NCBI RefSeq assembly: GCF_004137855.1
Contig: NZ_QBKB01000002.1
Coordinates: 258,981-292,080 of the forward strand
DNA: 33,100 nucleotides
From: Methanohalophilus profundi
GTDB lineage: Archaea > Halobacteriota > Methanosarcinia > Methanosarcinales > Methanosarcinaceae
Direction of reading: 5' to 3'
In this document: piece by piece, positions 8,813 to 30,740 of the stretch
How positions within the stretch are numbered: position 1 is the first letter of the stretch
Layout: each line of letters begins with the position of its first letter
Notes under the pieces: generated by a model
Database searches by the model: none
What the model was told of the DNA's origin: nothing
The model's input: the letters and a program-made list of their open reading frames with translations, nothing else
Program-made: the position numbers and the translations under genes

Positions 8813-9348
8813 TCAATTTTCACAATTGTCCAGTGTATAGCGCAGGGGTTTATGGTCAACCCCCTTTACATTTGTAGGCCCTTCATTTTTCATACCGATT
8901 TTTATTGCAACTTTCCTGGAAGCAATGTTGTCCTCATGTGAAAAAGCGATGAATTGCTTACAATCCAGTTTGCGGCAAGCGTGATGCAAGAAGATCTGGA
9001 TAGCCTCGGTTGCAAATCCCCGGTTCCAGTGTTTTGGTAAAATGGACCAGTAAACCTGCTAAGCTCCTTTATCCGGGTCAGGAAGCATTCCAACAGAACC
9101 AACAAATTCATCGCTGTTCTTTTTTGCAACAGTATAGGCGTAGACCTGATCGGGTTCATCGTAGTTTTCCATCGTTTTATGGAAAACCTGCGAGTATCTT
9201 TATAGGATGCAGGTTTTTGACTGAAGAAAAAATATTTTGTAGCTTCATCATTTGAAATAAAACTGTAAAAACCAGCAAAATCTTTCTCCTGCAGCGGCCT
9301 TATAACAAGCCTTTTGGATTCTATGATTTCATGTATTCTTGCTGGCAT
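8813..9348 (-). CDS. GNAT N-acetyltransferase (RimJ/RimL type) with a frameshift and an in-frame TAG
   Basis: This acetyltransferase would move an acetyl group from acetyl-CoA to an amine, perhaps a protein N-terminus. The first frame from ATG 9348 (a second ATG lies at 9360) gives MPARIHEIIESKRLVIRPL and TKYFFFSQKPASYKDTRR. Near 9179-9183 the frame shifts by one base; the next frame reads HKTMENYDEPDQVYAY and EFVGSVGMLPDPDKGA. There it meets TAG (9061-9059 on the minus strand), and the same frame continues with QVYWSILPKHWNRGFATEA, the acetyl-CoA binding region, then NIASRKVAIKIGM and a TGA at 8815-8813. Whole length would be about 178 residues, normal for the family. The TAG may encode pyrrolysine or be a nonsense mutation; with a frameshift as well, decay is possible. 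Confidence 0.75.
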
Positions 9349-9466
9349 GGGTATACACATGGTTCAAAGACTTATGTGTTTTACCGTTGCTAATATCAAA
9401 GAAAATTATGTTTGAATGTTTGAAATTTGGCGAAAAACTAATGAAACAGATTATTGATTATATCAC

Positions 9467-10640: not shown

Positions 10641-10705
10641 TGTTCCACATCCATCTGGCTTTAATAATTATTTTCAGTTTCTTTTAGAAACATTATGTGA
10701 TGTGT

Positions 10706-10749
10706 AAGTATGTGTTTATATACTTAAGTGTTTATTCATGCACATACTT
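10706..10749. promoter_or_regulatory. Inverted repeat around a TATA element in a divergent promoter
   Basis: AAGTATGTG (10706-10714) and CACATACTT (10741-10749) are exact reverse complements. Between them are TTTATATACTT and the palindrome ACTTAAGT (10722-10729). The site sits between the iron-sulfur flavoprotein (minus) and the GerW-like gene (plus). It looks like an operator overlapping a TATA box; the regulator is unknown. Confidence 0.45.
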
Positions 10750-10864
10750 CTGTTTAATATGTAACTATAAGTTTTTCATCTCCAGAAAATGCTGGATTAT
10801 CTTTTTAAATAACAATACCCATCTTATTATATCAATAAAATATCAAATATCAGGGAGTGTCAAT

Positions 10865-11271
10865 ATGGGAGTAGAAGATGTAATGAAAGAGGTCTCTGAG
10901 GAACTTGAGAGACTTGTCAGTACGAAAACCGTTGTAGGGGAAGCGATGGAAGCAGGTGGAAAAACTATCATACCCATCAGCAAAGTATCCTTTGGCTTTG
11001 GTAGTGGTGGCGGTGAAGATAGTAAAAGTGCAACCGAATCGAGCTTTGGTGGCGGCGGCGGTGCAGGTGCAAAATAGATCCTGTTGCATTTCTTGTTATA
11101 TCTGAAGAAGACGTAAAATTGTTACGTGTATCCGGCAAAGGCGATATTGATAAGGTCATTGAAGCAGTTCCGGAACTAATCGGGAAATTCAAAGGAATGA
11201 AAGGGAAAAAGCATGCCTCTGACAGACCTGAAGAAGTAAAAGAAGAGTCAGATAAAGAGGAAAAAGATTAA
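10865..11271 (+). CDS. ytfJ: GerW/YtfJ-family protein, split by a -1 slip in an A4 run
   Basis: A protein of about 135 residues of the Spore_YtfJ (GerW) family. The first frame gives MGVEDVMKEVSEELERLVST, VVGEAMEAGGKTIIPISKVS and the glycine-rich GFGSGGG and FGGGGGAGAK, all typical of the family. It stops at TAG 11075-11077; adding one A to the run 11071-11074 gives AKIDPVAFLVISEEDVKLL, the family's C-terminal part, and a charged tail ending at TAA 11269-11271. This TAG is therefore a frameshift product, not a candidate amber codon. GGGAGTG at 10853-10859 is a good ribosome binding site. The gene next to it encodes DUF2953 (YtfI in Bacillus), and the ytfI-ytfJ pairing known from Firmicutes supports both calls. 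Confidence 0.85.
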
Positions 11272-11313: not shown

Positions 11314-11922
11314 ATGTGGCCTATGATTATTTTTTCTGTACTTTTGCTGCTTTTGGTAGTGGCAATTTTATTCTTTTTTGTCGCATTTGATGTAACATTC
11401 AGGTTTACATTAGAAAAAAACAGTTACAAAACAAACCTGAAAATAACCTAGTTGGGAATCTCCAGAAATATCAAACCTTCCAGCAATAAAAAAAATGAAC
11501 AACAAGAGGATGAAATTAAAACAGAACGTTCGGTAAAACACAATCCAACTATTGTAAATGATCTTTCATCGTACTCTTCTATTTTCTTTGAGATCAAAAA
11601 TCCCCTCTTCAGGTTTGTATCAGACATCTTAAAAGCTATCCATTTTCGTTCTCTTTCTCTTGATATGAGATATGGTTTTGATGATCCCGCATATACAGGC
11701 ATTCTGTGTGGGTTTTTACATGCGGCTCTTGGAATAGTTAAGTGCAGTTGCCCTCAATGCAATTATCAGATTGTTCCCTGTTTTAATAATGAAATTTTAG
11801 AAATAGATGCCTCTGGAAGTTTTCATATCAGGCTGTACAGATTTATACCGGGTATACTACGGTTCATGTCCAGAAAGGTTGTGATCAAAAACCTGTGGAT
11901 ATCTTTGAGGAATAAATATTAA
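11314..11922 (+). CDS. ytfI: DUF2953 (YtfI-like) membrane protein with an in-frame TAG at codon 46
   Basis: 203 codons. The start ATG 11314 leads into a strong membrane helix (MIIFSVLLLLLVVAILFFF). TAG at 11449-11451 lies between NLKIT and LGISRNIK, and the frame stays open to TAA at 11920-11922. The part after TAG has the DUF2953 features: a long charged linker, then LSLDMRYGFDDPAYTGILCG, LGIVKCSCPQCNYQIVPCF and a second hydrophobic region. DUF2953 proteins commonly have Trp-Leu-Gly/Phe at this place, so TAG may stand for TGG, or be read as pyrrolysine. No frameshift is needed. The neighbour is the ytfJ-like gene 42 bases upstream; the two are probably co-transcribed. Function of the family is unknown. 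Confidence 0.72.
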
Positions 11923-30047: not shown

Positions 30048-30740
30048 ATGAGGATTCCATTTATGCCATTCTGGAAATCTTTGCTTAATGATATCGATTT
30101 CTATCTTGTGACAGATTCCGGCTTATCCAGGAAAGGTACATTGTCCGATGTGAAATGTGCAGTTGCGGCCGGGTGTAAGATTGTTCAGTATCGTGAGAAA
30201 GACAAGACTACAAAAGAGATGATCGAAGAGGCTATCCTGATCAGGAGAATATGTGGGGATAATGCCATCTTTCTGGTAAATGACCGTATCGATGTAGCCC
30301 TGGCTGCAGGAGCTGATGGAGTGCATATCGGACAGGACGATATGCCGATTGATCTGGCACGAAATATTCTGGGTGAAAATAAGATAATCGGCCTTACAGT
30401 CCATGATACAGATGAAGCAATCGAGGCAGAAAGATAGGGGGCTGATTACGTAGGTTTCAGTCCTGTTTTTGACACTACTACCAAAAAAGATGCAGGTATG
30501 GGTGTTGGACCTGAAAGGATTCAGGCGATGAAAACTATAATTGATATTCCGATTGTTGCCATAGGAGGCATCAATAAAGACAACTGTGTTTCAGTTGTTG
30601 AAAACGGGGCCGATAGTCTGGTTGCTATTTCAGCAATCGTTTGCAGTGATAATGTCAGGAGAGAAACAGAGGATTTCATTGCAACTATCCGCAAAATAAA
30701 GCAAAATCCCCTAAACAGAGTTAATGTAAAGGGAAAATGA
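30048..30740 (+). CDS. thiE: Thiamine phosphate synthase with an in-frame TAG at codon 130
   Basis: Couples hydroxymethylpyrimidine diphosphate with thiazole phosphate to make thiamine phosphate. The frame from ATG 30048 reads [53 protein letters not shown] and [16 protein letters not shown], then TAG at 30435-30437. The very same frame goes on with [33 protein letters not shown] and [11 protein letters not shown] to TGA 30738-30740. With TAG read as one residue the length is 230, normal for ThiE. No frameshift is needed. In Bacillus ThiE the matching residue is an Asp in AEEDGADYVG; the position varies in the family, so pyrrolysine there could be tolerated. If TAG stops translation the product lacks part of the active site. 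Confidence 0.9.

Follow-up and report, generated by a model that had tools for sequence, protein, structure and literature searches.

In the methylamine methyltransferases MtmB, MtbB and MttB, an in-frame UAG codon is read as pyrrolysine (Pyl), a residue that is functional and conserved in these enzymes. Within the genus Methanohalophilus, mass spectrometry showed Pyl at the UAG position of MttB from M. portucalensis FDF1 (PMC4928046). In-frame amber codons have also been reported in other proteins. In Candidatus Methanomethylophilus alvus, in which TAG accounts for 1.6% of stop use, Borrel et al. described sixteen in-frame-amber proteins beyond the methylamine methyltransferases, half of which have amber-free homologues, and argued that a new in-frame amber codon arising in a Pyl-suppressing cell would be a stable mutation (2014, PMC4153887). 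Neutral amber codons that arise by a single mutation are discussed by Have et al. (2013, PMC3639795), in whose text the word DUF2953 is absent, and Spring et al. proposed Pyl at a UAG codon in the citrate synthase of M. mahii (2010, PMC3017947).

The capture of a stray UAG codon by Pyl is already described, and the DUF2953 gene analysed here, which lies in a 33,100-nucleotide stretch of Methanohalophilus DNA (the window), adds another case. It resembles those of Ca. M. alvus in that the amber codon lies in a non-methyltransferase protein and, as in half of them, homologues lack it. It differs from them in belonging to another archaeal order, in that DUF2953 is absent from the accessible rows of the published table (PMC4153887) and in that the ancestral codon, TGG, can be read directly from close congeners. 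With the M. mahii citrate synthase, it shares the genus and an amber codon in a non-methyltransferase gene, although the gene is a different one. Unlike in the methylamine methyltransferases, Pyl would replace Trp here, in the protein of one genome only. Kivenson et al. are reported to have described, in Science in 2025, an archaeal code in which every TAG denotes Pyl, which could cover the DUF2953 gene as well. On its own, the gene is a further example of a stray amber codon in a salt-loving methanogen that uses Pyl. Its value is that of a worked case, with the ancestral codon given by near relatives, a nearly invariant site and TAG in core genes of congeners such as that of RuBisCO. It also makes a plain prediction for the proteomics of cultured Methanohalophilus strains, and it warns that standard annotation would truncate TAG-containing genes of this kind.

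Origin of the TAG codon in the DUF2953 gene

The gene occupies positions 11314..11922 of the forward strand and, when read through the TAG, encodes a DUF2953 membrane protein in 202 codons followed by TAA. A preliminary description of this DNA had noted a single in-frame TAG in one frame, no frameshift and DUF2953 features that persist beyond the TAG, all of which hold up. Translation of the frame yields exactly one internal stop, the TAG at codon 46 (11449..11451). The alignment to the orthologue in the congener genome G003 is free of gaps, and the orthologues in two further congeners, G004 and G001, are equal in length, which rules out a frameshift within the gene. A chance open reading frame (ORF) is likewise ruled out, because orthologues span the entire frame in these three nearest congeners. 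Downstream of the TAG, the Pfam model for DUF2953 (PF11167) matches with a score of 48.4 bits (cut-off, 22; E = 9.9e-13), above the gathering score for family membership. The in-frame TAG is thus flanked on both sides by homologous coding sequence, the pattern by which pyrrolysine-containing proteins are recognized in sequence. In a fold model (mean pLDDT of 72.8, pTM of 0.48), residue 46 is predicted to lie between the strands 37–44 and 49–53, after a helix formed by residues 2–22.

The genome of the window (G000; 1.83 Mb in four contigs, with an estimated completeness of 89.98%) was compared with those of its relatives, including G003 (2.08 Mb in one contig). G003, G004 and G001 encode the same 202 residues with identities of 97, 94 and 90%, respectively, and all three have TGG at codon 46; G007 has TTC and G006 has TTG. 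DUF2953 matches were found in 65 other genomes, and in the best 29 loci, which were fetched and aligned, site 46 is Trp in 27, Phe in one and Leu in one. The expectation that homologues carry Trp–Leu at this point was accurate for Trp, but the residue that follows is Leu in only about half of these loci (15 of 29; Met in 7 and others in 7). Given TGG in the three nearest congeners and Trp in 27 of the 29 loci, the TAG is most simply read as a private change from TGG, a single G-to-A substitution on the G000 branch alone. As explanations, the preliminary description had proposed either mutation of TGG or a pyrrolysine site, and it had named TGG in all sister strains, combined with a lack of expression in this one, as an observation that would count against its reading. 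At the level of species, TGG is what the three nearest congeners have; a TGG-to-TAG mutation is upheld and decoding by Pyl is plausible, whereas selection of the site for Pyl is not supported.

Two other codons of the gene are private to G000 with respect to G003, G004 and G001, namely, 144 (R144C) and 171 (R171H). Together with codon 46 (W46stop), all three private changes are nonsynonymous and run from GC to AT, and none is synonymous. Codon 46 aside, the gene differs between G000 and G003 by six nonsynonymous and two synonymous changes, which corresponds to a dN/dS of about 0.8, a value that is based on few changes.

Use of UAG in Methanohalophilus

G000 has the genes of a Pyl-decoding organism. 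PylS was found with a score of 370 bits (cut-off, 178), as were a tRNA-Pyl with the anticodon CTA and PylB, and the likely start of pylC adjoins pylB. MtmB of this genome contains one in-frame TAG.

To what extent UAG acts as a stop codon was assessed by comparing G000 with G003, over 980 kb of each, and with 180 kb of G004 and 77 kb of G001. When 493 TAA or TGA terminators of coding-like G003 ORFs were aligned with G000, 487 were TAA or TGA (with 21 swaps between the two), six were sense codons and none was TAG. Between G003 and G004, none of 110 terminators was TAG. Among the G003 ORFs of at least 100 codons, 12 of 871 end in TAG. Four of these, namely, the genes for DinB, MtbB and a wHTH protein and an ORF judged by eye to be sulfotransferase-like, remain open past the TAG for roughly 100 codons or more; pylB terminates at its TAG, an ABC-transporter-like ORF appears to be broken and four look antisense or due to chance. 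The remaining two, of 301 and 169 codons, may have true TAG stops. The tetranucleotide CTAG is under-represented, at 0.24 to 0.43 of expectation; its avoidance may partly explain why TAG is rare but leaves TAG inside genes unexplained.

In the reverse comparison, with G000 ORFs as the reference, TAG ends aligned with TAG in 13 cases and with sense codons in four, and one TAA end aligned with TAG. Of the 14 G000 ends that face TAG in G003, two belong to MtbB and pylB, and five are antisense or unclear. The other seven have gapped alignments, and the main G003 ORF on that strand extends further, to a TAA or TGA, as would be expected if the G000 ORFs were frameshifted. Indels in G000 inflate the number of its TAG-ended ORFs (46 of 908, compared with the 12 of 871 in G003).

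TAG codons are found inside conserved genes of the congeners. The RuBisCO large chain of G004 (M. euhalobius; L056:417-1838, contig C18) has TAG at codon 371, where G003 (Glu371) and G000 encode Glu. A rubredoxin–TPP enzyme of G001 has TAG at codon 398, which is Glu in G003 and G004, and DinB of G003 has TAG where G000 encodes Gln. Many of the TAG-containing frames listed are antisense shadows of real genes; those used here are GNAT, MtbB, ThiE and a malic-enzyme-like and a UDP-sugar-dehydrogenase-like gene, the last two named by eye. In the malic-enzyme-like gene, TAG stands against AAA in G003, a difference of two bases.

The window itself contains two further real genes with an in-frame TAG. 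The first encodes a GNAT acetyltransferase (8813..9360, reverse strand; one base short near 9183) with the TAG at 9059-9061. Eight genomes were searched, and TAG occupies the identical codon in six of the seven with a match (G000, G001, G003, G004, G006 and G007); the seventh, the more distant G005, has Tyr. On these sequences, the GNAT gene is a better candidate than the DUF2953 gene for a maintained pyrrolysine site. The second encodes thiamine-phosphate synthase (ThiE; 30048..30740, forward strand) with TAG at codon 130 (30435-30437), within the span of the Pfam TMP-TENI match. The site is Lys in congeners, encoded by AAA in G003 and G001 and by AAG in G004.

Taken together, the terminators, the GNAT codon shared across the genus and the TAG codons in core genes fit a genus in which most UAG codons would be translated. 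Because the Pyl system is present and the genus appears to treat UAG mostly as sense, Pyl insertion is the most likely fate of codon 46 in the DUF2953 gene. We therefore favour, with a probability of about 0.55, a reading in which UAG46 is translated as a tolerated, near-neutral replacement of Trp by Pyl and is not a dedicated site. A recent G-to-A change would have converted the Trp46 codon to TAG in one Methanohalophilus lineage; Pyl-tRNA would decode UAG46 in competition with the release factor; and the full-length product would carry Pyl in place of Trp46, between two strands past the membrane helix. The replacement would be tolerated or slightly harmful, with no selection for a pyrrolysine function. 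The TAG itself, its descent from TGG, the Pyl genes and the TAG codons in conserved genes of congeners are observed, whereas we infer that the base is correct, that codon 46 is translated and that the product works. The Phe and Leu found at the site in two relatives favour tolerance, and the otherwise near invariance of Trp weighs against it.

A broader proposal, which we regard as speculative and rather doubtful, is that Methanohalophilus has in effect reassigned UAG to Pyl. Codons for Lys, Glu, Gln, Tyr or Trp could then drift to UAG without truncation of the protein, as the DUF2953 gene would exemplify, while the UAG that closes pylB at the start of pylC would remain a regulated stop that tunes Pyl synthesis by its own read-through. 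If every TAG in the genome denoted Pyl, TAG would be unused as a terminator. In the 980 kb compared from each of G000 and G003, TAG replaces none of the 493 terminators in G000, yet all eight genus genomes have TAG as the terminator of pylB, and two G003 ORFs are ambiguous.

Assembly accuracy, stray stops and rival readings of codon 46

Although improbable, an error in the base itself is the foremost rival to Pyl insertion: the true codon would be TGG and the assembly consensus would be wrong at 11450. The assembly is rich in indels. Of 518 coding-like genes compared with G003, 158 carry indels of a single base or of odd length in G000, 339 in total; the corresponding comparison of G004 with G003 gives 31 in 16 of 116. 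Because one-base indels occur in the G000 orthologues of ribosomal protein S10, a PAN-like AAA ATPase, the DNA primase large subunit, pyruvate kinase and a PurF-like enzyme, most of the G000 indels are taken to be assembly errors. Examples within the window are found near 9183, 9700, 11071, 15381, 18498 and 21738. The gene for a CDGSH protein shows a clean change from sense to TAA that may have arisen as a substitution error, and the direction and nonsynonymous nature of all three private changes in the DUF2953 gene would also suit base errors.

Substitutions present a different picture. With G004 as the outgroup, the ratio of nonsynonymous to synonymous changes is 157:602 on the G000 branch and 112:461 on the G003 branch; with G001 as the outgroup, the ratios are 94:289 and 71:284, respectively. 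The G000 branch thus has at most a slight nonsynonymous excess, which suggests that substitution errors are few. A methylation-linked error at CCWGG was also considered and rejected, since G000, which lost 9 of 54 such sites, shows no excess over G003, which lost 8 of 53. Moreover, the TAG codons of ThiE and the malic-enzyme-like gene each lie two bases from the AAA of G003 and are unlikely to be single errors.

Errors or gene decay should yield TAA and TGA as well as TAG among stray in-frame stops, and the share of TAG expected is 0.39 from the observed mutational spectrum or 0.32 if changes are uniform. A rule-based count was made over all pairs of the four genomes, restricted to coding-like genes and to stops that lie away from indels, with 60 or more codons before them and 30 or more after them. 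G000 has two TAG and one TAA, and the other three genomes have four TAG, two TAA and two TGA. Stray stops are therefore not confined to TAG (six TAG, three TAA and two TGA), and the excess of TAG, 6 of 11, is not significant (P = 0.22; 0.11 under the uniform expectation). With a distance of at least 30 codons from the start, G000 has three TAG, two TAA and one TGA, and the others have four TAG, three TAA and two TGA; 7 of 15 is again not a significant excess (P = 0.35; 0.18 uniform). The ORFs 142570, 325838 and 88535, which account for four of the non-TAG rows, have no Pfam match and may not be genes; one TAG row (75502) likewise lacks a match. The type of stop gives no support to the case for TAG as a sense codon.

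Without filtering, the comparison of G003 with G000 gives 26 internal stops (14 TAA, 7 TAG and 5 TGA). A filter applied by hand removed eleven that lie upstream of the true start (five by alignment and six by codon position), six in the last five codons and three beside an indel. It also restored the DUF2953 gene, which had earlier been lost to a third-position filter, to give five TAG and two TAA in G000. With four hand-picked TAG codons from other genomes, the count became 9 of 11 (P = 0.005). We set this figure aside as biased, because two of the four had been picked as TAG-ended ORFs and the six TAA- or TGA-ended ORFs aligned with sense codons were handled differently.

The lack of a TAG excess in the rule-based count would also agree with loss of function, in which the TAG would be a true nonsense mutation and the DUF2953 gene, or the ytfJ–DUF2953 pair, would be decaying in this lineage. 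We consider this distinctly less probable than a base error. The upstream neighbour is a YtfJ/GerW-like gene (10862..11271, forward strand, with the start placed according to how long the G003 orthologue is), and the Pfam model Spore_YtfJ (PF09579) matches at 10697-11074. Near 11071, it lacks one base that G003, G004 and G001 have, which would suit decay of the pair. This deletion, however, is one among hundreds of similar indels and is probably an error. The dN/dS of the DUF2953 gene, on its few changes, and its three nonsynonymous private changes out of three also speak for loss of function, and citrate synthase provides a cautionary precedent in the genus: it has a TAG in G007, and of the seven genus genomes that gave a match, four match it only over a C-terminal piece. 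On the other side, the DUF2953 gene has no other stop or indel, and UAG is decodable in this organism and sense-like in the genus.

A pyrrolysine site selected for function in the DUF2953 protein is very improbable: the organism's capacity to insert Pyl is all that speaks for it, and a TAG conserved across relatives, as such a site would show, was not found, the change being private to one genome and the relatives having large hydrophobic residues (Trp, Phe or Leu) at the position.

UAG codons of citrate synthase and pylB

The citrate synthase gene varies across the genus. A full-length match is present in G003, G005 and G007, the last with one TAG, and only the C-terminal piece was found in G000, G001, G004 and G006; G002 gave no match. 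Judging by the amber codon in its citrate synthase, G007 is probably M. mahii. The published UAG in the citrate synthase of that species may represent early decay.

The terminator of pylB is TAG in all eight genus genomes, with the likely start of pylC one base later. In four other members of the family, pylB ends in TAG, again beside a likely pylC start (G008 and G009), in TGA (G011) or in TAA (G012). Reading through the TAG would add 39 codons before a TAA, and this distance is identical in all eight genus genomes. The 39-codon extension overlaps pylC in a different frame, and its conservation may reflect only that of pylC. The pylB TAG is thus a possible point of read-through control over pyrrolysine synthesis, or it may simply be a consequence of the overlap with pylC.
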